Source: Christiangramia lutea (lineage in GTDB: Bacteria; Bacteroidota; Bacteroidia; Flavobacteriales; Flavobacteriaceae). From it: 64,000 nucleotides of DNA. The stretch's first letter is position 1; each line of letters opens with the position of its first letter. Both the position numbers and the translations under genes were made by a program. Location of the stretch: the NCBI RefSeq assembly GCF_022489035.1, contig NZ_JAKVTV010000003.1, positions 310,001 through 374,000 on the forward strand, read 5' to 3'. Under the pieces are notes generated by a model. It was not told where the DNA came from, ran no database searches, and saw only the letters and a list, made by a program, of their open reading frames with translations. This document shows positions 8,207-49,723 of the stretch, one piece after another.

Positions 8207-9205
8207 TTGACCGATATAAATGAATCTGATCTTAAGATCATAGACCTTGTAAATGCTAGGAAAAGCAGGTTGCAAATCATGAATTTTGGCGCCAGCATTT
8301 TCAGTTTCAAAATGAAAAATAAGAAAGGTGATCTTATCAATCTGGTAGTTGGGCCTGCTAATGCCAATGAATATCTGAGCGATGAATACAGGGATGAAGG
8401 AAAATGTTTTGGAGCTAGTACTGGCAGGTTTGCCGGAAGAATTGCCGAGGGTAAATTCGAGATTGGTGAAAAGGAATATCAATTAGATTATGTAAAGAAC
8501 GATGTTCATTTGCACGGAGGTGAATCTGGATTTCAGTATAAACTCTGGGAAATAGATAAAGTGCATGGGGGAGAGAATCCATATGTAATTCTTTCTTATA
8601 CTAGTGAACACCTGGAAGAAGGATACCCGGGTAGGCTTGAGGTGTCTGCAAAATATTTACTAACTGAAGAGAATGAAATTAAAATTACCTATAAGGCCAG
8701 AACAGATCGGGAAACTATTTTGAATATTACCAATCATGCCTACTTCAATCTGAATGGTTCTGGAAGCGTGAGCGATCATTTTATGCAGGTTCATGCCTCC
8801 AAGATTCTGGAACTTGATGAGAAGAATTTACCTACCGGTAATCTTACCAAGCTCAAAGGTCATCCTAAAGATTTTTCTGAAAATAAATTACTTGGAAACA
8901 GGGAGCTTGACGATGTATACATCACTGATGTTATGGAATCTGAATTTCAGGCTCAGCTTTTTGCGCCTCTTAGCGGTATTAAAATGAAGGTGAGTAGCAA
9001 TCAGCCAGTTGTAGTGATCTATTCCCCCGAAAAGTTACCGGATACCTGGAGTTATTTAAGTGAAATTGACAAGAAATACCCGGCAGTGGCCTTAGAAGCC
9101 CAGAACTATCCGGATGCGCCTAATTTCCGAAACTTTCCGTCGAGCTTATTAAAGCCTGGAGAGTTGTATGAAAACAACATTACATTTGCTTTTTCTGTAA
9201 AATAA
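8207..9205 (+). CDS. galM: Aldose 1-epimerase (mutarotase)
   Basis: A 332-residue enzyme that interconverts alpha and beta anomers of aldoses. It has the galactose mutarotase fold with the catalytic histidines in VHLHGGESGFQYK and TNHAYFNLNG and the catalytic glutamate in ALEAQNYPDAPN. ASTGRFAGRI is the usual N-terminal signature. The start used is TTG at 8207, two bases after the previous stop; the first internal ATG (residue 25) would remove conserved strands. No signal peptide is seen. It lies 36 bases ahead of a sodium:sugar symporter, which fits mutarotation of an imported sugar. Confidence 0.9.
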   Translation: MTDINESDLKIIDLVNARKSRLQIMNFGASIFSFKMKNKKGDLINLVVGPANANEYLSDEYRDEGKCFGASTGRFAGRIAEGKFEIGEKEYQLDYVKNDVHLHGGESGFQYKLWEIDKVHGGENPYVILSYTSEHLEEGYPGRLEVSAKYLLTEENEIKITYKARTDRETILNITNHAYFNLNGSGSVSDHFMQVHASKILELDEKNLPTGNLTKLKGHPKDFSENKLLGNRELDDVYITDVMESEFQAQLFAPLSGIKMKVSSNQPVVVIYSPEKLPDTWSYLSEIDKKYPAVALEAQNYPDAPNFRNFPSSLLKPGELYENNITFAFSVK

Positions 9206-9241
9206 TAATTCTATATTTAACCGAAAATTTAAGAAAACGTT

Positions 9242-10819
9242 ATGATTGGAATTCTATCCTTCGTGGGATTTACCGCCCTCGTTGCCATAATCGCATATTT
9301 TGCAACCAGATCTACCGATGAAACCACCAGCGATGGTTATTTTCTAGGTGGTAGAAGTTTGACTGCAGGGGTGATCGCAGGATCGGTTTTACTTACCAAC
9401 CTTTCTACAGAACAAATTGTGGGTTTAAATGGTTCGGCCTACAGTGAGGGAATTCTGGTAATGGCCTGGGAAACGCTGGCGGCACTTGCGATCGTAGTAA
9501 CTGCGTTGTTTTTACTTCCACGTTACCTTAAAGGAGGGTTAACTACAGTTCCGCAATTTTTACAAACCCGTTTTGACCGCACCACCAAATCTATAGTTTC
9601 TGGACTTTTCCTTTCAGGATATATGGTGATCTTCCTACCCATTGTACTTTACTCGGGAAGTTTGGCCATCAGCACCATGTTCGATATTCCCGGAATGCTG
9701 GGAGTGAGTGATACTGCTGCCCTGTGGATCTGTGTATGGGGAATTGGGATTGTGGGATCGATCTATGCGATCTTCGGAGGATTGAAAGCCGTTGCGGTTT
9801 CAGATACCATTAATGCCATCGGTCTTTTGATTGGTGGTTTGATGATCCCAGTGTTTGGATTAATGGCTATTGGTGATGGAGATATCTTAGCAGGTTTAAC
9901 CACTCTGGTAGATTCCAATCCTGAAAAGTTTGACTCAATTGGTGGTCCTGATGCTTCAGTTCCATTCTCAACCATATTTACAGGAATGATGCTGGTTCAG
10001 CTTTTCTACTGGGGAACTAACCAGGCAATCATTCAAAGGGCCCTGGCGGCAAAGAACCTGAAGGAAGGTCAGAAAGGATTGATGCTGGCGGCATTTATCA
10101 AAATCCTGGGGCCTATCATCGTGGTTCTTCCGGGAATCATTGCCTGGCATATGTTTCAGGGAAATCTGGATAATGCAGACCAGGCATATCCTGCCCTCGT
10201 AAATGAAGTGCTGCCACCGGTACTTGTAGGTTTCTTCGCAGCCGTACTTTTCGGAGCTATCTTAAGTTCCCTTAACTCTTCGGTAACCTTATTCGGAATC
10301 GACATTTATAAGCATCACTTCAACCCTGAGGCTTCTGAAATAGAAGTTGTGAAAAAAGGAAAGACTTTTGGGATTTTCATTGCTATTGCCTCCATGTTCA
10401 TTGCTCCGTTGATCGCGAATGCTCCACAGGGACTCTTCGGATATCTTCAGGAGGTGAATGGATGTTACAGTATCCCGATTTTGACCATTGTAGTGGTAGG
10501 TTATCTTTCTAAGAAGATCCCGGCTATTGCTGCGAAAGTTGCCCTTTTCAGTGGTGTTGGACTTTACCTGGTTTACCTGGGATTAAAATATTTCGTGGTA
10601 GGAGAGGATGCGCTTCCGCATTACCTTCACGTTATGGCTATACTATTTGTAATGAATATCGCTATTATGTGGATCATTGGTAGAGTAAAACCAAGAAAGG
10701 AGGACTTTGTATTGCAACATACCAAGCAGGTTGATATTAGCCCATGGAAGTACGTGCTTCCGGTGGGAATTGGGATCTGTGCTTTAGTGATCTTCGTTTA
10801 TGTTTACTTCGCACAGTAA
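9242..10819 (+). CDS. Sodium:solute symporter family (SSS/SLC5), probable sugar transporter
   Basis: A 525-residue inner-membrane protein with about 13-14 hydrophobic helices. Family signatures include GYFLGGRSLTAGVIAGSVLLTNLSTEQIVGLNGSAY at the first helices and the central GGLKAVAVSDTINAIGLLIGG. WGTNQAIIQRALAAKNLKEGQKG matches the vSGLT-like branch, which carries galactose or glucose with Na+. It directly follows galM and is closed by a terminator, so these two form a sugar-uptake unit. The exact sugar is not shown. Confidence 0.88.
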   Translation: MIGILSFVGFTALVAIIAYFATRSTDETTSDGYFLGGRSLTAGVIAGSVLLTNLSTEQIVGLNGSAYSEGILVMAWETLAALAIVVTALFLLPRYLKGGLTTVPQFLQTRFDRTTKSIVSGLFLSGYMVIFLPIVLYSGSLAISTMFDIPGMLGVSDTAALWICVWGIGIVGSIYAIFGGLKAVAVSDTINAIGLLIGGLMIPVFGLMAIGDGDILAGLTTLVDSNPEKFDSIGGPDASVPFSTIFTGMMLVQLFYWGTNQAIIQRALAAKNLKEGQKGLMLAAFIKILGPIIVVLPGIIAWHMFQGNLDNADQAYPALVNEVLPPVLVGFFAAVLFGAILSSLNSSVTLFGIDIYKHHFNPEASEIEVVKKGKTFGIFIAIASMFIAPLIANAPQGLFGYLQEVNGCYSIPILTIVVVGYLSKKIPAIAAKVALFSGVGLYLVYLGLKYFVVGEDALPHYLHVMAILFVMNIAIMWIIGRVKPRKEDFVLQHTKQVDISPWKYVLPVGIGICALVIFVYVYFAQ

Positions 10820-39297: not shown

Positions 39298-40185
39298 ATG
39301 CTTGTAAAAGTTTACGGCAGCGCAGTCTTTGGTGTAGATGCGACTACGATCACTGTTGAGGTTAATGTGGCTTCAGGAATAGGTTACCACCTTGTAGGAT
39401 TGCCAGATAATGCAGTGAAAGAATCCAGTTATCGAATAACGGCGGCCTTACAGAATAATAAATATAAATTACCGGGAAAAAAGATCATTATTAATATGGC
39501 TCCTGCCGATCTTCGAAAGGAAGGATCGGCCTATGATCTGACTTTTGCTCTAGGTATTCTAGCAGCCTCTAATCAAATAAAGGCAGATAATATTTCAGAT
39601 TATATAATTATGGGTGAACTTTCCCTGGATGGGAGCCTGCAGCCTATCAAAGGTGCCCTGCCAATTGCTATCCAAGCCAAAAAAGAAGGATTTAAAGGAT
39701 TCATACTTCCAGAACAAAATGCTAAAGAAGCTGCAATTGTATCTGGACTCGAGGTCTATGGAATTAAAAATATAACCGACGTTATTTCTTTTTTCAACGA
39801 AGGAGTTAGTTTGGAGAAAACTGAGATCAACACGCGAGAGACTTTTTTCAAGAATCTTGAACATCCAGAACATGATTTTGCAGATGTAAAAGGACAGGAG
39901 TCCATAAAGCGTTGTATGGAAATTGCTGCTGCGGGCGGGCATAATATCATCTTAATTGGTCCTCCCGGTGCCGGCAAAACCATGTTGGCAAAGCGATTGC
40001 CAACAATTTTACCTCCAATGACTCTACAGGAAGCTCTTGAAACTACTAAAATTCACAGTGTTGCTGGCAGGATTAGAGATAATGTAGGATTAATGGCTCA
40101 AAGACCATTCAGAAGTCCTCATCATACGATTTCTGATGTTAAAGTATTAAATGTGAACATTGCGAAAAATTCAAGAATTCACTAA
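39298..40185 (+). pseudogene. comM: comM/yifB 5' part, interrupted by the island
   Basis: Encodes the N-terminal domain and the start of the AAA+ domain of the Mg-chelatase-like ComM/YifB protein, a hexameric branch-migration helicase that helps natural transformation in other bacteria. The N-terminal ChlI-like domain ([21 protein letters not shown]) and Walker [16 protein letters not shown] are present. Native sequence ends at HHTISD (codon at 40135-40137); the tail [14 protein letters not shown] is island sequence. Joined at the GA core to the 3' part at 49697, the frame gives a normal 512-residue protein, so excision would restore the gene. As it stands Walker B is missing. Confidence 0.93.
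40110..40161. other. attL of the serine-recombinase island
   Basis: comM sequence runs up to GATGT at 40135-40139. From 40137 the 25-base island arm (40137-40161) includes TTAAATGTGAACATT. It is the inverted partner of the arm at the other end (49672-49696), with 22 of 25 positions matching. The shared word at both junctions is GATGT, and the symmetry puts the crossover dinucleotide at GA (40135-40136). Confidence 0.8.
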
Positions 40186-40400
40186 TACGTAAAATCAAAG
40201 GTTAATTTACATTTTGAACTATTAAGTAAATTAGTTATATCAATTTGGGTTAAATTTTTGCATCCTTTTAAAATAATAGAATTTCTAGCATCAGTCTGTT
40301 TAATAATTTTAAGAATTTCTAAAAAACTAAAATCATTGAAGGATATTATTGTATTTGAATTTGCTCTCGAAACTAATAATATGTTGGATATCTTTTTCAT
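40182..40400 (-). CDS. Small hypothetical protein, partner of the HTH protein
   Basis: 72 residues, not recognised. Its ATG overlaps the stop of the preceding HTH-protein gene (ATGA), which supports translation. The sequence has alternating hydrophobic and polar residues ([37 protein letters not shown]), as expected for a small folded alpha/beta protein. It ends 47 bases inside the left att core. Function unknown. Confidence 0.55.
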
Positions 40401-41491
40401 TTAGTTATTTCATCAATAATTTTTAAATACAATTTGTTATCTACCTCTTTTAAAGGGCTGAAAGCAATTTTTAATTTGTTTTGAAAACTACTACAGTAAT
40501 TTGGTATCGCAATTTTGAGAAAGCGGGATGTTTGATTTATTTTGTTTAATCCGACACCTGTTTTATTATTTATTTTACGCTGAGAAATACCTCTAATAAG
40601 TAGTTCAATTACAACCTTTTTTTGTTTCAAAAACAGAATTTGTTCAGATGTCCATTTTTTGGGTATTATAACTTCATTGGGTAGAAACATATAATTATTA
40701 ATTGGGTTGTTGTAGTATTTGGCAACTTTATTGACAGTCTTAATGCTTGGTTTTGTATGCTTTTCAATATACGATTGAGTACACCCTTTTTTAAGTAATC
40801 GAACTATTTCAGGATACTTGCTTAAAATTTTTTCTTTGTTAACCAGGAACTTTAAAAGTTCTAATCTTTTTTGGTAGAATGACTCGTAGCTGGGACAGCT
40901 TAAAATTGAAGGTTTTTCAATTTTCTTAATAAATTTTAGTTGGTCATTAATAGAAGTAGGAAGCTGAAAGTATAAATCCTTTTGATAGCTAAACTTGATA
41001 AATTCAACGACATCCCAATCTCCATAAATTGAATCGCGAACTAATTTAGAAAATTCTCTTTCAAAATGCTTCGCGTCAAAGATTTCAGAAAATACATCAC
41101 ATTTGAAATTTGTAATATAACTTAGGGGAGGAAAATAAAGGCCTTTACTAATACTATAAACATCTTTATTTTTTTCTAGATATTCCTTAATCTTTTCTAC
41201 TTCTTCTTTATCTGAATAATTACTTTTTTTTAAAAGTGCATTTTTTCTTATTTTAAAATATTCTTTTTCAGTAAGCCTAAAATTCCCGAGATTTTGACCA
41301 TTGTTTTTAATTAAATACCCATCTAAATATTGTTCTGTATATTTTTTTTCGAGATCAATATTGTAGTAATCAAGATGATGATTTTTGTAAAAGTAATTAT
41401 TACAAGATTTAAACTTAACTGCTAATTCTGAGTAAAATTGAATTCTAAACCTCTGTAATTTGAGATCTTCAAGTGGATTTATTTTAGGCAT
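40397..41491 (-). CDS. Island protein with two helix-turn-helix-like segments
   Basis: A 364-residue basic protein of unknown family. Two similar segments in the C-terminal half look like resolvase/Hin-type helix-turn-helices: IVRLLKKGCTQSYIEKHTKPSIKTVNKVAKYY (about 223-254) and VIELLIRGISQRKINNKTGVGLNKINQTSRFL (about 297-328). The N-terminal half is Lys/Tyr/Phe-rich without a recognisable catalytic motif. It is the outermost operon at the left end with the 72-residue protein. It might act as a regulator, an excision accessory factor or a transposition-type DNA-binding protein; only DNA binding is supported. Confidence 0.65.
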   Translation of the reverse strand: MPKINPLEDLKLQRFRIQFYSELAVKFKSCNNYFYKNHHLDYYNIDLEKKYTEQYLDGYLIKNNGQNLGNFRLTEKEYFKIRKNALLKKSNYSDKEEVEKIKEYLEKNKDVYSISKGLYFPPLSYITNFKCDVFSEIFDAKHFEREFSKLVRDSIYGDWDVVEFIKFSYQKDLYFQLPTSINDQLKFIKKIEKPSILSCPSYESFYQKRLELLKFLVNKEKILSKYPEIVRLLKKGCTQSYIEKHTKPSIKTVNKVAKYYNNPINNYMFLPNEVIIPKKWTSEQILFLKQKKVVIELLIRGISQRKINNKTGVGLNKINQTSRFLKIAIPNYCSSFQNKLKIAFSPLKEVDNKLYLKIIDEITK

Positions 41492-41664
41492 AAAAATAAT
41501 TTATTGATTTTTGTTTAAGTAATTGATTATCAAGTTATTTATACCTCTATCTAAAACATTGTACTTTTTTTTCCTGTAAAAAAAGTTATTCTAAAACATA
41601 TTTAAAACTTTTAAAGAGATTTTGTTAATAATTTATTTTAGCTACTCCAGTAATTATATTGCTT

Positions 41665-41701
41665 TGTCCGTAAATTTGTCCGTGTCCGTTTAAATGTCCG
41701 T
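41665..41701 (+). repeat. Four TGTCCGT repeats in front of the methyltransferase gene
   Basis: TGTCCGT occurs at 41665, 41677, 41683 and 41695 in the same orientation, the middle two overlapping by one base. They sit immediately upstream of ATG 41706 and overlap the alternative ATG 41694. Direct repeats next to a gene whose product begins with an integrase Arm-type DNA-binding domain suggest arm-type binding sites or an autoregulatory operator. Confidence 0.7.
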
Positions 41702-41705
41702 AAAT

Positions 41706-43913
41706 ATGGCTAGCATAAATTTTTACTTAGATAAAGCAGATAAAAAGGGGTTGTCTCCGATACACCTTAGAATAAACTGTAGCAATAAACAAGTTAAAAT
41801 ATCAACAGGTGAAAAGGTAAGTAATGATAATTTTGATAAGGAAAAACAAAGAGTTTGTGATGAGGTAGAAAATTCTAACTCAATAAATCACTATCTCCAA
41901 TACTTGTATGATCGCACAGATGAATTAATTAATAACTCCACTAAAAAAAAATTTGATACATCTGAATTGAAACAATTCTTAGGTGAGTTTATTGATAGTT
42001 ATAAAACAAATCATCAAGTTAAAATAGTTGATAAAGAATCGCCTAAAGGTGAATCTTTTACTTTTATTGATCTTTTTGCAGGAGCAGGAGGTTTTAGTGA
42101 AGGATTCTTACAAGCTGATGTTAAAAACAAATATTTTGATTTTCTTTTAGCGAATGATATAAATGAAAATTGTGAATTAACTCACGTTGTTAGATATAAT
42201 CATCAACTTGGGATGGATGCTGAATTTATTTGTCAAGATATTACTGAGCCTGATTTTTTAGAAAATTTACTTAGTAAGCTAAACAATAATTCAGTTGATG
42301 TAGTATGTGGTGGTCCTCCTTGTCAAAGTTTCAGTTTAGCTGGAAAACGTAAAAAGTTTGATAAGAAAGATGATCTTTTTTCTCATTACCTGCAAGTAAT
42401 AAAAATTCTCCAACCAAAATATTTTGTCATGGAAAATGTCAAAGGAATTTTGACAAAAGAAAAGGGCAGAATTAAAGATTTAATTATTGAAGAAATTAAT
42501 TCAATTGTTGATATTAATAAGATTGATCAATTAAGTAAGTTTCTATTATCTCTTAACAAGAAATCAAATTCATATCAGCTTGATTTTATTAATCGAAGAA
42601 TCGAATTAGAAAAATATGAAAACGATAAAATAAAATATTCTGAAAAGAGAATAGATTATATACGTGTTGTAGAAAATTTATTTAAAAAATTAACTTCTGA
42701 AGGAGTAGATTATCAAATCAGTAAGACTAATGTTGATATTAATACTATCCGGCATGGTTTAAATTTATTGGGTAGGTCAAAAGAATGGGATAAATTAAAA
42801 AGGGATATAATAAAGGAAAAGGATTATTGTAATATTGACAATGATCATTTTGTTGGTATGTTCCATGATTTTTTGAATGAATTAAATACTGATCATATAA
42901 TATCGAAGATTGAACATTCATTTAATCATTTAAAAGTCCCTAAAAATCTATTCAAGTTAAAAAGCAATATTCTAGAAGCACTAAAAATTTACACTTATAG
43001 TTTTGACGACTGTATAAAAACAATTGAAAGTTTATGCTCCAAAAAAGAATTTGAAAGCTTTAATAAAATCATTGATGACTTGAGGCTTTACAAAATTGAA
43101 AAACCTTTTGTAGCCAATTCTTCAGATTACGGTGTGCCTCAAAATAGAGAAAGGGTATTGTTTATTGGTTGTAGAAAAGACCAAAAGTTTATAAGTGAAA
43201 TTGCACCGACAGTTAAAGAAAAGGATAAGGTAACAGTTTTTGAAGCATTATATGATTTAGATTTTTTAAAGAATAACGAGGAAGCCCATAGTTATAAGAA
43301 GATTGATAATAAGAAAAGTTTGAATGGTTCATTCCTAAAATTAGAAAACCTTATTGAAAAGAGATCTATTGACGGAAAAAAGCTAAATAATAAAGGGAAA
43401 ACCTTTGCGGAGTGGAGTAAGGAAGGTAGATTGCATTCAAGGTTTAATAAATCAAAAGGTTTTTACGTTAGAAATTTTGAAGATTTAAAGAATGAAAATA
43501 AAGTTTATGATGTTTTATCTAATCATAAAACAAGTAATCAAAACGAGAAAGTAATAAAGAGACTTGATGTAATTAGAAAGTCTGGGAATTATGAATCTGC
43601 GAAGATTAAGTTAGAAAAACTGGGGCTTTCTTCTAAGAAAAGAAATTACAATGTTTTAGACCCTTATAAACAAAGTCCTACAGTACTAACTATTCCAGAT
43701 GATTATATCCATTATAATTCTCCAAGATCATTGACTGTTAGGGAAATGGCTAGATTGCAGTCATTTGATGACTCTTTTATATTTCAAGGTAAAAGGTCTA
43801 CAGGAGGTAATAACAGAAAAAGCGAGGTTCCTCAATATACTCTTGTTGGAAATGCAGTTCCACCTTTAATGGCTCGCGCCGTAGCCAATGAAATTCTAAA
43901 AAATATTAAATGA
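41706..43913 (+). CDS. C5-cytosine DNA methyltransferase with N-terminal integrase Arm-type domain
   Basis: 735 residues from ATG 41706 (ATG 41694 adds four). All core motifs are present (numbering from 41694): I FIDLFAGAGGFSEGF at 124, IV GGPPCQSFSLAGKR with Cys210, VI ENV at 247, VIII QNRERVLFIG at 483, IX SPRSLTVREMARLQSF, X LVGNAVPPLMARAVANEI. Two oddities. The first 80 residues (ASINFYLDKADKKGLSPIHLRI..VKISTGEKVSNDNFDKE) look like the Arm DNA-binding domain of Bacteroidota tyrosine recombinases. About 200 extra helical residues lie between motifs VI and VIII. The 3' end overlaps the restriction gene (ATGA). It protects the host from the neighbouring enzyme. Confidence 0.92.
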   Translation: MASINFYLDKADKKGLSPIHLRINCSNKQVKISTGEKVSNDNFDKEKQRVCDEVENSNSINHYLQYLYDRTDELINNSTKKKFDTSELKQFLGEFIDSYKTNHQVKIVDKESPKGESFTFIDLFAGAGGFSEGFLQADVKNKYFDFLLANDINENCELTHVVRYNHQLGMDAEFICQDITEPDFLENLLSKLNNNSVDVVCGGPPCQSFSLAGKRKKFDKKDDLFSHYLQVIKILQPKYFVMENVKGILTKEKGRIKDLIIEEINSIVDINKIDQLSKFLLSLNKKSNSYQLDFINRRIELEKYENDKIKYSEKRIDYIRVVENLFKKLTSEGVDYQISKTNVDINTIRHGLNLLGRSKEWDKLKRDIIKEKDYCNIDNDHFVGMFHDFLNELNTDHIISKIEHSFNHLKVPKNLFKLKSNILEALKIYTYSFDDCIKTIESLCSKKEFESFNKIIDDLRLYKIEKPFVANSSDYGVPQNRERVLFIGCRKDQKFISEIAPTVKEKDKVTVFEALYDLDFLKNNEEAHSYKKIDNKKSLNGSFLKLENLIEKRSIDGKKLNNKGKTFAEWSKEGRLHSRFNKSKGFYVRNFEDLKNENKVYDVLSNHKTSNQNEKVIKRLDVIRKSGNYESAKIKLEKLGLSSKKRNYNVLDPYKQSPTVLTIPDDYIHYNSPRSLTVREMARLQSFDDSFIFQGKRSTGGNNRKSEVPQYTLVGNAVPPLMARAVANEILKNIK

Positions 43914-45103
43914 GAGAGCTTACCTCTGTAGAAAAATCTAGAATTAGGATTTTTACTCAGAATTCAATTAGTATTACTTTATTAGAACCTACTGAAAATG
44001 GCTTGAAAAAGTCTATTATGGATGCTACTGGTCCTGTTAGAAATTACTTGAAAAATAACGGGATTCATGATTTTGATACTCAATCTCAAGGTCCTATTAA
44101 TAAGGTAATAATACCAACACAGATTTATACAGACTTTAAAATAAAAAATACAAAAACTTCACTTTATAGACCCATAACTAAACAAGGAGATCCTAGAATA
44201 TGGATATATGGTTTAAAAAGCTTTGTAGATCCAAATGACATAATAGGAATAATAGTTTATGAAAACCAATTAAATATATTGAATCTAACCAAATTAGATT
44301 TAGAAAACTTAGTTTCTTCACCCTTATTAAATCCTATACAGGAATTAATAAGGGAAATTAATCAATTAGAGAATGTAATAGCTGATGAACTTTTAGGCAT
44401 GCTCAAAGGATTAGCTAAGAGAGGTCCAATTGCATCTTTATTGCAGGCAGACACATCTATAGGAAGAACTTTAGAAACTGAATTGGGGATAGCTATGAAT
44501 TCATCGAAACAACCTGACTACAAGGGTATTGAGCTAAAGTCTTATAGGTCAATGAGAAGCTCAGGTAAAAAAGTAAATAATAGAAAAACTCTCTTTGCGC
44601 AGGTTCCAAATTGGAAATTAAGTAATCTAAAAAGTTCCAGAGAAATTTTGGAGAACTTTGGTTATGAAAGAGAAAATGAATTTAAGCTTTATTGCACGGT
44701 TTCAACTTTAAGACCAAATTCCCAAGGATTAAAATTGGAATTAAAATCGAATATTTCGCAATTGATCGAAGGTCATAATTCTTATGGTGAAGTAGTGGTT
44801 TGGGAAACTTCAAAATTGCATAGTAGACTTTTAAAAAAACATAATGAAACCTTTTGGGTAGCGGCAGAGAGTATTAAAGAAGATAATAAGGAATATTTCC
44901 AATTCAGGAGAGTTTATCACACTCGTAAACCTATTACCTCTCAATTTGATATTTTATTAGAACAAGGTAAAATCACTTTAGATCATTTAATAAAGCGTAA
45001 TACTAAAGGTAGGGTAAAAGAGAAAGGTCCATTTTTTAAAATTGACTCTGATTCGTTAGAATTATTATTTCCTCCGAGTAAAATTTACAATTTATTAGAT
45101 TAA
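43910..45103 (+). CDS. Type II restriction endonuclease, MvaI/BcnI-like
   Basis: A 397-residue protein. The segment TSIGRTLETELGIAMNSSKQPDYKGIELKSYR (residues 182-213) matches the MvaI/BcnI family core. Glu189 or Glu191 in the helix and Asp203, Glu208 and Lys210 form a PD-(D/E)xK site. Family members known to me act as monomers on CCNGG-type sites (CCWGG for MvaI, CCSGG for BcnI); the site of this one is not determined. The start overlaps the methyltransferase stop by four bases, ensuring paired expression with methyltransferase first. The C-terminus overlaps the converging glycosylase gene by four bases. Confidence 0.82.
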   Translation: MRELTSVEKSRIRIFTQNSISITLLEPTENGLKKSIMDATGPVRNYLKNNGIHDFDTQSQGPINKVIIPTQIYTDFKIKNTKTSLYRPITKQGDPRIWIYGLKSFVDPNDIIGIIVYENQLNILNLTKLDLENLVSSPLLNPIQELIREINQLENVIADELLGMLKGLAKRGPIASLLQADTSIGRTLETELGIAMNSSKQPDYKGIELKSYRSMRSSGKKVNNRKTLFAQVPNWKLSNLKSSREILENFGYERENEFKLYCTVSTLRPNSQGLKLELKSNISQLIEGHNSYGEVVVWETSKLHSRLLKKHNETFWVAAESIKEDNKEYFQFRRVYHTRKPITSQFDILLEQGKITLDHLIKRNTKGRVKEKGPFFKIDSDSLELLFPPSKIYNLLD

Positions 45104-45753
45104 GTTATTTTGTTGAAGTATGTGCATTTTGATGTCAAACCACAATTTTCACAAAGAGGTTTTCTAGCTTTACAAACTAATGCTCCATAATCCAATATTG
45201 CCCAATTCAATTTTTTGAACTCTGAATGGTCAATTATTTTATATGAAATTTTTTGTAAAAATGGATCATATCTAATGTCTGATAGTTTTCTAGGTTGAAA
45301 ATATCTTTCTAATACTCTGGCCATATTGACATCTAGAAGAGGAGCTGGCTTATTCAAAATAAATGTTTCATAGGCATTAGCAATATATTGGCCAATCATG
45401 GGAAGTTTTTTTATGTCATCTTTATTATCCGGTAGAACACCTTTCAATTTTTTAACGGTTTGAGCTAAATTAAATAATCTTGTACCTTTTTGATTATTTA
45501 AACCTACAGGAATTAAGAACTTTTGAAGATCTTTTTCATTCGCTTCTATTAATTTTTCCCAGTTAGGGTATTTTTCTAAGAAAACAGGATAAAATTTGGC
45601 AACTGTATTGGCCTGTGTTCGTTGTAGTAAAATTTCTGAAATTACAACGTTATAAGCATTCAATGGTTGTTTTCTCCAATCGTAATTTCTATGGTTTTTA
45701 TAATACCATTCAAGTATTTGGTCTTGAAAAAATATAATTTTTTCCTGATTCAT
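45100..45753 (-). CDS. HhH-GPD mismatch glycosylase, MIG-like (T:G thymine-DNA glycosylase)
   Basis: About 217 residues from ATG 45753; an ATG at 45789 would add 12. MutY/EndoIII superfamily: ISEILLQRTQANTV helix, HhH LPMIGQYIANA, catalytic Asp in LLDVNMARVL, and a 4Fe-4S loop C-X6-C-X2-C-X5-C near the end. The residue after GQ in the hairpin is Tyr, as in the archaeal MIG enzyme, where EndoIII has Lys and MutY has Ser. MIG removes thymine from T:G pairs made by 5-methylcytosine deamination and is encoded beside a restriction-modification system. Here it converges on the restriction gene with a four-base overlap, so it probably does the job of Vsr. Confidence 0.82.
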   Translation of the reverse strand: MNQEKIIFFQDQILEWYYKNHRNYDWRKQPLNAYNVVISEILLQRTQANTVAKFYPVFLEKYPNWEKLIEANEKDLQKFLIPVGLNNQKGTRLFNLAQTVKKLKGVLPDNKDDIKKLPMIGQYIANAYETFILNKPAPLLDVNMARVLERYFQPRKLSDIRYDPFLQKISYKIIDHSEFKKLNWAILDYGALVCKARKPLCENCGLTSKCTYFNKIT

Positions 45754-45783
45754 AATAATTGAAAATTTATACCAATATAATAA

Positions 45784-45807
45784 GTTCATTTAGTATAATA
45801 AATGAAC
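45784..45807. promoter_or_regulatory. Inverted repeat between divergent glycosylase and recombinase genes
   Basis: GTTCATTTA and TAAATGAAC are perfect 9-base arms around six bases. The repeat lies 31 bases before the preferred glycosylase start and about 75 before the recombinase start, a good place for an operator. The binding protein is unknown. Confidence 0.45.
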
Positions 45808-45880
45808 ATATTAAACTGCTGCTTAACAGGATTGTATGGTTCTTAAAAAAGATGTTCATTAATGTTTTTTCAGATTAAAA

Positions 45881-46450
45881 ATGAATATTATTTTTAAAAA
45901 AATAATTATGACAGGTAGTACTTATATTGAATTTGATAAAGCAGTTTCAAAGGGTTTTTTACTTATCCAAAAACAAGTAAATCCAAACTTTGGTTTATTA
46001 ATTATATGTGGTTGTAATCTAGGATTGAGAATTTCAGATCTTTTAAAATTAAATTTTAAAGACTTGAAAAAAGATGAATTCACTATTGTAGAACAAAAAA
46101 CTGGTAAAATTAGAACTTTACAATCTAATCATCATATTAAACTAGCTTTAAGGTATTTTGAAGATTCATTAAGTTATAAAAGAGGTGGTAAGCCTTTTGT
46201 ATCACAAAAAGGTACTACTTATTCTATTCAACAGGTAAATAGATTAATCAAAAAGTATTTTTCAGGTAATAGAATAAGTTCACATAGTTTGCGAAAGTCC
46301 TTCGGAAGGAGAGTATGGGAAATGAATAATAAAACTGATCAAGCCTTATTATACCTAAGTGAAATTTTTAATCACAGTAATACGCTTGTAACTAGGAGAT
46401 ATTTAGGTATTAGGCAGGAAGAAATAAAGGATATTTATTTGAATTTATAA
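45881..46450 (+). CDS. Minimal tyrosine recombinase (catalytic domain only)
   Basis: 189 residues, with a possible later start at ATG 45908. The whole protein is the lambda-integrase catalytic domain with all active residues visible: Arg50 (GLRISDL), Lys76 (TGK), His135 and Arg138 (SHSLRKSFGR), His164 (FNHSN) and Tyr173 (TRRYLG). It lacks the Arm and core-binding domains of normal integrases. It could resolve, invert or assist excision, or act with another DNA-binding protein. A strong bidirectional terminator follows directly. The ends of the island fit a serine recombinase, so this enzyme is probably not the integrase. Confidence 0.88.
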   Translation: MNIIFKKIIMTGSTYIEFDKAVSKGFLLIQKQVNPNFGLLIICGCNLGLRISDLLKLNFKDLKKDEFTIVEQKTGKIRTLQSNHHIKLALRYFEDSLSYKRGGKPFVSQKGTTYSIQQVNRLIKKYFSGNRISSHSLRKSFGRRVWEMNNKTDQALLYLSEIFNHSNTLVTRRYLGIRQEEIKDIYLNL

Positions 46451-46483
46451 AACCGTTACCTCAAATGAAAAGGTAACGGTTTT
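46449..46483. terminator. Bidirectional terminator between converging island genes
   Basis: AAAACCGTTACCT at 46449-46461 pairs perfectly with AGGTAACGGTTTT at 46471-46483 around nine bases. A and T tracts on both sides suit both directions. Confidence 0.85.
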
Positions 46484-46492
46484 GATTAGAAG

Positions 46493-47830
46493 TTAAAGTC
46501 CTAAGACTACTTTAGTTCCATTTAAAACTTGTAAAAATTCAATATATTCTTCTGTAGTCTTTGAATCTATTTTAGTTAAAAAGTAATCGCTAATATTTTC
46601 TTCATTCCCCTTCAAAGACTTAATTTGGTTCAATAAATTAACTCCTGTTTTAGCATCATTCTTCCACTTTTTTAGACGAGAATCAGTCATAGTGAAATTT
46701 CTATGGGCATTGTAATGATTGGCTAATTTGTCTGTTAAAGGAGTAGCCTTTTTCATTATATTATTAAATTGTATTATTGAATTTGCTATTTGGTCGATAT
46801 ATTTAAAATTTCCTTTTTGTACTTCTTCGTATACATCATAAGTTGCTCTAACCCTACCTAATTCAGCTTCAATGTATAGTATTTCACCATCAAGATCTGT
46901 TTTGTAACCATTATTTTCTAGTAAGGATATGTAATCTGAAATTTGATTATCGATTCCAAATTTATTTACAAATTCATATGAGCAGTAAATCATATTTCCA
47001 CTCTGATTTTCCAATAATGTATTAGTGCTGCCATAACCGTATAAATTACTACCATGAATAGTTTTTAAACTATCTGTTTTTAATAATTGTCCTGAAATTG
47101 CTTCATAGGTTGAATTTCTAATCAAATTATACTCGCCAATTATTTTATACTTACCAGACAGGTTCTCAAAATCTTCAATTCTATCCCCTCTTAGAAGTAG
47201 TTTTTTATTTTCATGTCCTACCTGTTTAATTGCTTTTTCAGTTTTTGGTGTTCTATTAAGTTTATTTCTTAAAGTATTTAATTCGGTATATAGGTAAGTG
47301 TTTTCATTATAATATCCATCAGTAGAGATTTTACTTTTTATGGTTTTCAAGTGATTTTCTAACCCATTCCACTTTATAGAACTAAATCGTTTTCTATTGT
47401 CTGAATTAAATTCTTTGTCAGCATAAATTAAATAGTCAAGATTGTGTTTGTTCGATAGCAATTGTGCCTGATAGAGATGGTGTTTTTTCTTTTTAAAGCT
47501 TCCACTGGAATAGAGAAAGTGGTCAATTAGCGAGTTAATTGATAAAATCTCATCGTATTTGGCTTTTATCTTTTTTTCCGCAATACTATCAGATTTTTTT
47601 TGTTCAATTTTTTTAAGAATGGTCGTGTATTGAGTAGTTTGAACATCTATTGTGTCATACTTAGGTATAGATGTATTTTTAAAATTTGCTTGATAGACGA
47701 AATATCCATCTTTATATGCAGGGTCTAATACTTTTTTTGTGTGTTCAGGTTGAAATTCGTAGCTCGTCTTTTGAGCTGTAGAAAAATTGGTAATAATAAT
47801 GGTGAATGCCAAGTAGTAAAATTTACTCAT
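46493..47830 (-). CDS. Secreted island protein of unknown function
   Basis: A 445-residue protein with a short signal peptide (FYYLAFTIIITNFSTAQ), so exported. I do not recognise a family. The mature part is Lys/Asn/Tyr-rich, with helical, charged stretches (TTILKKIEQKKSDSIAEKKIKAKYDEIL; QIANSIIQFNNIMKKATPLTDKLANHYNAH) and no cysteine cluster or protease/hydrolase motif. It is monocistronic, closed by the shared terminator, and lies between the tyrosine and serine recombinase genes. As cargo it may give a surface or stress trait; no function can be assigned. Confidence 0.7.
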   Translation of the reverse strand: MSKFYYLAFTIIITNFSTAQKTSYEFQPEHTKKVLDPAYKDGYFVYQANFKNTSIPKYDTIDVQTTQYTTILKKIEQKKSDSIAEKKIKAKYDEILSINSLIDHFLYSSGSFKKKKHHLYQAQLLSNKHNLDYLIYADKEFNSDNRKRFSSIKWNGLENHLKTIKSKISTDGYYNENTYLYTELNTLRNKLNRTPKTEKAIKQVGHENKKLLLRGDRIEDFENLSGKYKIIGEYNLIRNSTYEAISGQLLKTDSLKTIHGSNLYGYGSTNTLLENQSGNMIYCSYEFVNKFGIDNQISDYISLLENNGYKTDLDGEILYIEAELGRVRATYDVYEEVQKGNFKYIDQIANSIIQFNNIMKKATPLTDKLANHYNAHRNFTMTDSRLKKWKNDAKTGVNLLNQIKSLKGNEENISDYFLTKIDSKTTEEYIEFLQVLNGTKVVLGL

Positions 47831-48005
47831 AGTTAAAATAGATTAGATTGAATTGATTAAGTAGTAAAATGATAAAATTCGGAGGTAGGGTAGTCGAATT
47901 GTTGTAATAAAAATATAAAAAAAATTATTACTGCTTAATCTGCTTGAAACTCTTGTAAATTTTATATAGTATTATATTTAAATGATAATTAAGTGCATCA
48001 GTTAA
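47831..48005. other. Short AT-rich gap in the island
   Basis: 175 bases upstream of the secreted-protein gene (minus strand) and downstream of the serine recombinase stop. No hairpin terminator or repeat is obvious. Confidence 0.4.
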
Positions 48006-49646
48006 TCACTCAATATCAGGATCATAATTAAATAGATTTTCATTGAATGTGGCGGTATTTGTTATTTCACGTGGTCCTCTAACTTGAAGAACCTTCCACA
48101 TATCTATATAAGGTATTCTTTTGTAAGCATCCATTACATAATAAATTTTCTTTTTTGGGTTAAATTTAAGTTGAATTGAAAAAGCGTATGTTCTTTTTCC
48201 ATCGAAATAAATCATAACCTTTTGTATGTAAGTCCTTATTAAATTTCTTTTATCAACCCACGAGACGTTTCGTTTTTTAGCTAAGTTGGTAATTTTCCTT
48301 ATTTCATAAATATTATTTTTACTTGATGAAAACACTTCAAGTCGTTCCTCATTTCTTTCAATTTTTAAATTTATATCATTTATTGCATTTTCAATTCTCT
48401 GAATTTCTTTTGTAATATCATCCTCATTCAATTTTCCTTCAATAGTAAGTCGAATTGCTCTTTGTTTTTGGGAGGCTAAAACTTTTTTCTTACTCCTTAA
48501 ATTTTGAAGATTTTCAAGTAGTAGTTTTTCATCTTCCTCCTTATTTTCAAAGTACTCATTATAAGATTTTAGTAAAATTTCATATTTAAAAAATTGTTCC
48601 CATATAAGCCCTTCTAAAATATCAATATTTATACTCCTATTATCACATTTTTTTTGGGGATATCGTTTTGAAGAACACATGTAGTAATTATCTTTTTTAT
48701 TTGTTCTAGTCCTACCATACATGTTTTCCCCACATCTTCCACATTTAATTATACCCTTAAGCATATACTTATGATCCACTTTTTTCCCTTTATTATTTCT
48801 GTTTTTTGGAAGATTTTGATTTACCTTATTCCAATAAATATTTGAAAAAATAGCGGGGCAGTCATATGTGCCTCCTGAATACACCCTAACTCCTTTATAA
48901 ACTTCATTTTTAATAATGTCTCTTACAGTTTTTCCAGACCAAATAATTTCTGATTTTCTTTTAACCTTAAATTTATTCGGATCGTATCTATCTGGTATAG
49001 TAAGGGTTCCTTTATTTAATTTATTATAACGGGTTGGTATTCCTTCATTAGTCAAAATTTCAGCAATCTTAGATGTCCCTTTTCCTTCTAGACTTAATGA
49101 ATATATTCTTTCTACTACCTCACGTTCCTCTTCATTGATTTGCATAATGCCATTTTCATCTGAACAATAACCATAAGGAATAATGCCGTGTATTTTTCCT
49201 TTTTTAACGTTATGCTTTAAAACCTGTTTAATTTTTCTCTGAGTGTTTTTAACATAATATTCATTGAAAAGACTATATAGATTTGATACTAAATCCACTG
49301 TAGGATCAGATAAATTGACTTCGCCTTCAGATGTATAAAATTTTATTGAATGTTTTCGAAAAATATCTTTTATAGCAAAACCTACTCTGGGGTTTCTTTC
49401 TAATCTGGAGTGATCAGTTACAAAAACGCTTGAAATTTCTTTTGCGGCGATGGCTGCAATTAGCTGTTTTAGTCCAGGTCTATCATTAATATTTTCTACT
49501 GTTCCACTTATTCCTTCATCCTTGAATACTAGATATTGTATGTTAAGTTCTTTTGCTTTTTCTATACCTAATTCAGCCTGATTCTTAATTGAACGATTTT
49601 CACCTTCCTCCTTATCTTGTGATATTCTACAATATATGCCTAACAT
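48006..49646 (-). CDS. Large serine recombinase (integrase of the island)
   Basis: 546 residues from ATG 49646; a TTG at 49661 would add five. The resolvase-type catalytic domain starts [25 protein letters not shown] with the nucleophilic Ser, followed by [14 protein letters not shown] recombinase domain ([31 protein letters not shown]) is next, then a zinc ribbon ([12 protein letters not shown]...[11 protein letters not shown]). A long coiled coil (about 370-440) controls directionality in this class. It reads inward from attR, 26 bases from the att arm. This is the usual gene position for a serine integrase beside its attachment site. Confidence 0.93.
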
Positions 49647-49671
49647 TATATTTTTTTTCAAATATAATATT

Positions 49672-49723
49672 AATGTTCACATTTAGTACTCTTACAGATG
49701 TGGCTTTAGTCGGCGGGGGTGCT
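49672..49723. other. attR of the serine-recombinase island
   Basis: The 25-base island arm at 49672-49696 (starting AATGTTCACATTTAGTACT) is the inverted partner of the left arm. It is followed by the shared GATGT at 49697-49701 and then resumed comM sequence (GGCTTTAGTCGGCGG). With attL it defines a 52-base attP and an attB inside the conserved [16 protein letters not shown] coding stretch. Confidence 0.8.

Follow-up and report, generated by a model that had tools for sequence, protein, structure and literature searches.

C5-cytosine methyltransferases with a proven regulatory function are few; the portion of a 2013 report accessible to us (PMC3695355) counts only six. The closest described systems are M.SsoII and M.Ecl18kI, which, according to the accessible parts of three reports (PMC3695355, PMC3978073, PMC6100179), regulate their own restriction-modification (R-M) genes; for the M.SsoII type, those parts describe a 71-residue N-terminal region and a 15-mer inverted-repeat site. 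Self-regulation is also on record for a recombinase, since the available text of PMC2951348 reports that KplE1 IntS acts as a repressor of its own gene at a recombination region (att) overlapping the int promoter, and similar cases are cited in the part of a review at hand (PMC3874152). An arm-binding domain is described for IntCTnDOT (PMC8138268, in the excerpt available).

The locus described here lies in a 64,000-nucleotide window (the whole stretch of DNA analysed) from Christiangramia lutea, contig NZ_JAKVTV010000003.1, positions 310,001 to 374,000. Its central gene almost certainly encodes a type II C5-cytosine methyltransferase with a tyrosine-recombinase Arm domain at its N terminus (an Arm-methyltransferase). 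Like M.SsoII and M.Ecl18kI, as far as those sources go, the protein is a C5-methyltransferase that belongs to a type II R-M system, extends beyond the methyltransferase domain at its N terminus and has a specific, in this case putative, site in the promoter region. The distinct N-terminal domain of the SsoII type was thus found, but its N-terminal region, which we take to be a helix-turn-helix (HTH), and its inverted-repeat site were not: here there are an integrase Arm and four direct repeats. The locus resembles Bacteroidota integrases of the Arm-DNA-bind_5 family (PF17293, presumably of the IntCTnDOT subgroup) both in the Arm domain and in having tandem upstream repeats, which precede 32 of 60 such genes at a spacing of 10 to 12 bp, but it carries a methyltransferase in place of the recombinase catalytic domain. 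In this it also differs from KplE1 IntS, which is a recombinase with its attL. The partner nuclease shares PF15515 with the MvaI/BcnI family of R-M systems but has an extra N-terminal domain of ~160 residues.

No description of an Arm-methyltransferase pairing was found in the literature searched, most subscription journals being outside the reach of that search; what is new here is the pairing itself and the direct-repeat type of operator. If the regulatory reading developed below is true, it adds to the regulatory methyltransferases a widespread Bacteroidota class with a different DNA-binding domain and an operator readable from sequence, and it shows that a recombinase arm can be put to new use in regulating transcription. 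With its conserved operator, the fusion is no longer a mere curiosity but a class open to testing.

The Arm-methyltransferase gene and its neighbours

An uninterrupted reading frame of 739 codons runs from 41694 to 43913 on the forward strand. Because the four codons at 41694 to 41705 hold the last operator repeat, the ATG at 41706 is the likelier start, which bears out the start assumed in the first-pass annotation of this DNA. The features of the locus are as follows.

41665 to 41705, forward: candidate operator array of four direct GTCCGT repeats, spacing 12-6-12
41666-71, 41678-83, 41684-89 and 41696-41701, forward: the four GTCCGT repeats
41671 to 41678, forward: TAAATTTG, a fit to the Bacteroidota −7 consensus TAnnTTTG, lying between the first two repeats
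41706 to 41942, forward: integrase-type Arm DNA-binding domain, residues 1-79, predicted as three strands and a helix (Pfam, hhalign, AF2 and viral fold matches)
41958 to 42011, forward: second helix, residues 85-102, between Arm and methyltransferase
42057 to 43910, forward: C5-cytosine methyltransferase domain, residues 118-735, with catalytic motifs and with profile and fold matches
42444 to 43082, forward: all-helical insertion of ~210 residues (247-459) in the methyltransferase
43910 to 45103, forward: MvaI/BcnI-type restriction endonuclease (REase) with a PF15515 domain, overlapping the methyltransferase stop codon
45100 to 45789, reverse: HhH-GPD base-excision glycosylase (MutY/EndoIII superfamily), after the REase

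The methyltransferase half is readily recognized. Pfam DNA_methylase (PF00145) matches the 739-residue frame with an E value of 3.3e-57; the motifs FxGxGG, PPCQ, ENV and QxRxR, which we take to be the catalytic motifs of C5-methyltransferases, are present; and the top PDB fold matches include M.HhaI and M.HaeIII. The helical insertion presumably sits between catalytic motifs VI and VIII. A Pfam search found no tyrosine recombinase catalytic domain (Phage_integrase) in the protein, and a profile search found no significant HTH family in it. The helix at residues 85-102 may serve as a coupler between the two halves. The genome carries one copy of the gene.

Residues 1-159 of the REase form the additional N-terminal domain, and a PDB sequence search at E 0.01 returned no solved relative of this protein. 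The glycosylase may repair deaminated 5-methylcytosine; relatives of it occur in L106, L109 and L111 among the 80 loci of relatives described below, many of which are short. On the other side of the array lies a divergent neighbour (40397-41491) with TrpR-like HTH repeats, which had no relatives in the 80 loci by BLAST. The whole sits in an island of ~9.6 kb (40135-49701) that interrupts a Mg-chelatase-type gene, which we take to be comM. By eye, the island has GATGT at both junctions and inverted repeats at its ends (TAAATGTGAACATT); it encodes a large serine recombinase with Resolvase, Recombinase and zinc-ribbon domains (48006-49661, reverse strand).

The N-terminal domain as an integrase Arm

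The first-pass annotation had read the first 80 residues as resembling an integrase Arm domain joined to a complete C5-methyltransferase, and it had proposed a profile search, a structure comparison and a survey of the same domain pair. Both halves were matched in the one frame, by PF17293 and PF00145, so the fusion stands as described. PF17293 scored 24.5 bits (E 3.9e-5) against the 739-residue frame, above its cut-off of 22.6 bits, and reached an E value of 9.9e-7 against the first 129 codons alone. It also matched, at E values up to 0.01, all 49 of 49 N-terminal rows and all 38 of 38 full-length rows, which together represent the protein itself and 48 of its 80 relatives. When the 49-row profile was aligned by hhalign with 35 Arm domains from Bacteroidota frames of integrase size, the match had a probability of 99.1% over 74 columns.

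The structure comparison agreed in part. AF2 predicts strands at residues 3-8, 16-25 and 28-39 and a helix at 57-76, with pLDDT values of ~80 to 95, followed by the second helix. Against predicted viral structures (BFVD), the best four matches were all integrases (E 2.2e-6, 1.1e-4, 7.1e-4 and 6e-3; TM ~0.6). A fold search of the PDB with the Arm, however, gave no integrase among the 50 matches listed, of 645 with E values up to 10, the best E value being 0.13, and the domain went undetected in sequence searches of NCBIfam and the PDB. Taken together, the profile matches and the modelled fold make it almost certain, in our judgement, that residues 1-80 are a tyrosine-recombinase Arm domain.

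Relatives and spread of the fusion

The survey of the domain pair ran six short peptide patterns against a GTDB collection and gave 160 confirmed relatives, of which the best 80 were kept; Arm-less relatives are possibly under-sampled, since one of the six patterns falls in the Arm domain. Every one of the 80 fetched sequences, which are the best half of the 160 and not independent of one another, aligns from residue 1 through the Arm, with 61 to 66% identity. By their record titles, the relatives belong to Flavobacteriaceae, other Flavobacteriales, Bacteroidales, Roseivirga, Marivirga, Flammeovirga and metagenome-assembled genomes of Chitinophagales. An Arm match within a frame of 737 to 775 residues was found in 5 of 395 genomes drawn from the phylum, C. 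lutea included. The Arm-methyltransferase fusion is old and widespread.

Mobile-element collections were searched as well. The matches to 57 methyltransferase relatives on viral contigs begin at residue 96 or later. Plasmid and phage collections yielded 436 and 199 records, all below 60% identity, which say little about the fusion because the query was the methyltransferase without the Arm. At one plasmid match (H2), the annotated methyltransferase starts 12 bases before the match, with no space for an Arm.

A near-invariant direct-repeat array before the start codon

The sequence directly 5′ of the start codon reads TGTCCGTAAaTTTGTCCGTGT(a/c)CGTAAAAAcGTCCG. We described it by a 35-base pattern, GTCCGT-N6-GTCCGT-GTnCGT-N6-GTCCG, which in the C. 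lutea locus ends at 41700, 5 nt ahead of the start codon, and across loci ends 4 to 16 nt before the ATG. At least 20 of the 22 fixed bases were present in 79 of 81 sequences (C. lutea and its 80 relatives): all 22 in 62 of the 81 (C. lutea and 61 relatives), 21 in 16 and 20 in one (L066). The two others (L065 and L071) keep a single 18-bp unit, one half of the array. Over the 79 rows, mean pairwise identity was 0.93 in the array versus 0.44 in the 35 nt of AT-rich flank, and mean information was 1.80 bits per base versus 0.58 in the 37 upstream bases analysed. Such near-invariance argues for present use. It extends in part to more divergent Arm-methyltransferases, one of which (G016, with an Arm 34% identical to that of C. 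lutea) keeps one array unit, while another (G296) keeps a four-repeat array with an altered third repeat.

The array also covers a probable promoter element. The consensus TAnnTTTG, quoted as the Bacteroidota −7 element in the accessible part of PMC2483708, is present in 73 of the 79 arrays. Of those 73, only 19 were seen to have a TTG close to the −33 place. A switch of the CfrBI type, in which a palindrome in the operator is methylated, was considered and set aside, no C-containing palindrome common to all arrays being visible by eye.

In whole genomes the array was confined to these genes: of 296 searched, three contained the four-repeat pattern, each in one copy that stood before an Arm-methyltransferase, while a reversed control pattern occurred in none of the 296. 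Outside the operators, no GTCCGT pair was found in the 924,264 bases of the 81 loci. The array was absent from the gene at all 57 viral-contig methyltransferase loci; in one of them (L282), a forward-strand scan found one GTCCG pair ~1.2 kb before the matched segment, which we take to be chance. The single unit GTCCGTAnnTTTGTCCG was found in 6 of 395 genomes, in four of them at Arm-methyltransferases. The other two copies, one before a frame that we take to encode peptide deformylase (G292) and one inside a frame (G133), look like chance in the light of the reversed control, which was found in 13 genomes. We also looked for integrases sharing the methyltransferase repeat, and the first 26 loci that a search with the N terminus found and that are not methyltransferases (L006-L031) had no GTCCGT pair on either strand.

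To what does the array belong, if not to the Arm? Of the loci, 44 extend at least 2.5 kb to each side of the gene, and in 41 of these the REase or a protein with its N-terminal domain was found. Every other gene family near the Arm-methyltransferase occurred in at most 4 of the 44, except an antisense frame inside the methyltransferase gene (13 loci), so that no linked regulator is at hand. A REase match was missing in 6 of the 80 loci. In two of these (L033 and L077) the available sequence ends just past the methyltransferase, and a third (L065) is one of the one-unit arrays, but the remaining three (L043, L046 and L090) keep the four-repeat array with 22, 21 and 21 of the 22 fixed bases. The specificity of the array, the lack of a conserved linked gene in these loci and the retention of the array where the REase match is missing make the Arm its most likely reader.

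Tandem repeats upstream of other Arm genes

As a comparison set we took 60 PF17293 genes with integrase-size frames (L145-L204); a Phage_integrase domain was present in all 10 of the 10 complete frames scanned from the same PF17293 search. Exact direct-repeat runs of at least 7 nt upstream of these genes numbered 15, 15 and 18 at spacings of 10, 11 and 12 bp, versus 0 to 6 at every other spacing from 7 to 39. With a threshold of at least 8 nt, repeats spaced 10 to 12 bp lay within 250 nt upstream of the Arm domain in 32 of the 60, versus 2 of 60 in the gene, 5 of 60 in the adjoining 250 nt farther upstream and 1 of 60 at spacings of 13 to 15 bp; shuffled sequences gave a mean of 0.98 and a maximum of 5. 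Among control open reading frames (395 other frames of at least 200 residues from the 81 loci), 12 had such repeats at 10 to 12 bp and 11 at 13 to 15 bp. The other 28 of the 60 Arm genes had no such repeat at the 8-nt threshold.

The repeat sequences vary and include TGTTTTACC, TGTTGTACC, TGTTCTACC, GGTTACC and TTGACC. One locus (L189) has TGTCCCC in seven copies at 12-bp steps. Across 32 integrases, similarity between Arms correlated weakly with similarity between repeats (rho 0.14), no better than with a control flank (rho 0.15), so that the link proposed between each Arm and its own repeat is one of co-occurrence. The arrays before these 32 genes are candidate arm sites, which offers testable regulation for many Bacteroidota mobile elements.

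A model of self-regulation and its alternatives

On these sequence patterns, we think it probable that the array is bound by the Arm domain, which thereby represses the methyltransferase-REase operon. The Arm would bind the four GTCCGT direct repeats, which overlap the putative promoter and reach nearly to the start codon. As its level rises, the methyltransferase would fill the array cooperatively, which is plausible because spacings of 12, 6 and 12 bp would separate neighbouring Arms by roughly one helical turn or half of one. Once the −7 box and the start region were occupied, RNA polymerase would be blocked and the level of the operon held steady, and the promoter would be open at low protein levels, such as those that follow entry into a new cell. 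The binding, its cooperativity, the timing and the direction of control, toward repression and not activation, are what we infer. The conserved operator lends circumstantial support to the autoregulation at which the first-pass annotation had guessed.

The array might instead be bound by some other protein, either a host factor or an unlinked regulator, with the Arm only raising general DNA affinity or processivity. A phylum-wide host regulator need not be linked to the gene. Against this explanation, no third gene is conserved beside it, a host regulon would not be expected to look like an array that stands only before Arm-methyltransferases in 296 genomes, and the 57 viral-contig methyltransferases without an Arm-region match also lack the array; we regard this explanation as unlikely. 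Somewhat less credit still is due to the proposal, made in part by the first-pass annotation, that the Arm tethers the enzyme to its mobile island, or to the related one that the array is an old attachment-site arm taken over from the start of a captured integrase gene. About half of the integrase-size Arm genes tested have upstream repeats, and gene start and array may therefore have been captured together, but the near-invariance of the array speaks for present use. Tethering fares poorly for two further reasons: no additional copy of the repeat pair was found in the 81 loci, and neither the large serine recombinase of the island nor its short tyrosine recombinase has an Arm match.

The closeness of the array pattern to the ATG would also suit control in the mRNA, with the protein or the repeats governing translation from a 5′ leader that ends at the start codon. 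Yet the repeats are direct rather than inverted, the array includes a −7-like box and is placed by it at the promoter, and Arm domains bind arm DNA (PMC8138268, in the part available), all of which makes this reading very improbable. Repression of the operon by the Arm at its own promoter is the reading that we prefer.

Possible exchangeable effectors and nested defence genes

The REase N-terminal domain and the genes found between methyltransferase and REase give hints, on sequence grounds, of a reader domain in common use and of defence genes nested at these loci. They are the basis of a wider reading, which we offer tentatively and think rather unlikely: Arm-methyltransferases with the GTCCGT operator would be a self-regulating marking module for exchangeable effectors, and a common domain of ~130 to 160 residues, attached to a GmrSD-type protein, a TIR-LRR-Roc-COR protein or an MvaI/BcnI nuclease, would read the mark. 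At some loci, the response to an unmarked target might then be cell suicide, not cutting. A TIR-LRR-Roc-COR protein in L032 (9415-12777) begins with a counterpart of REase residues 1-159 (36% identity), and GmrSD_N proteins in L056, L105 and L108 end with one (35 to 41% identity); both kinds of protein adjoin Arm-methyltransferases. A gene for DzbA of the Dazbog system lies between methyltransferase and REase in all seven of the seven loci scanned (L034, L036, L045, L063, L083, L087 and L111), with PADLOC E values of 2e-95 or better; the copy in L034 is at 8223-10435. In both loci scanned for DzbB (L034 and L045), it follows DzbA.
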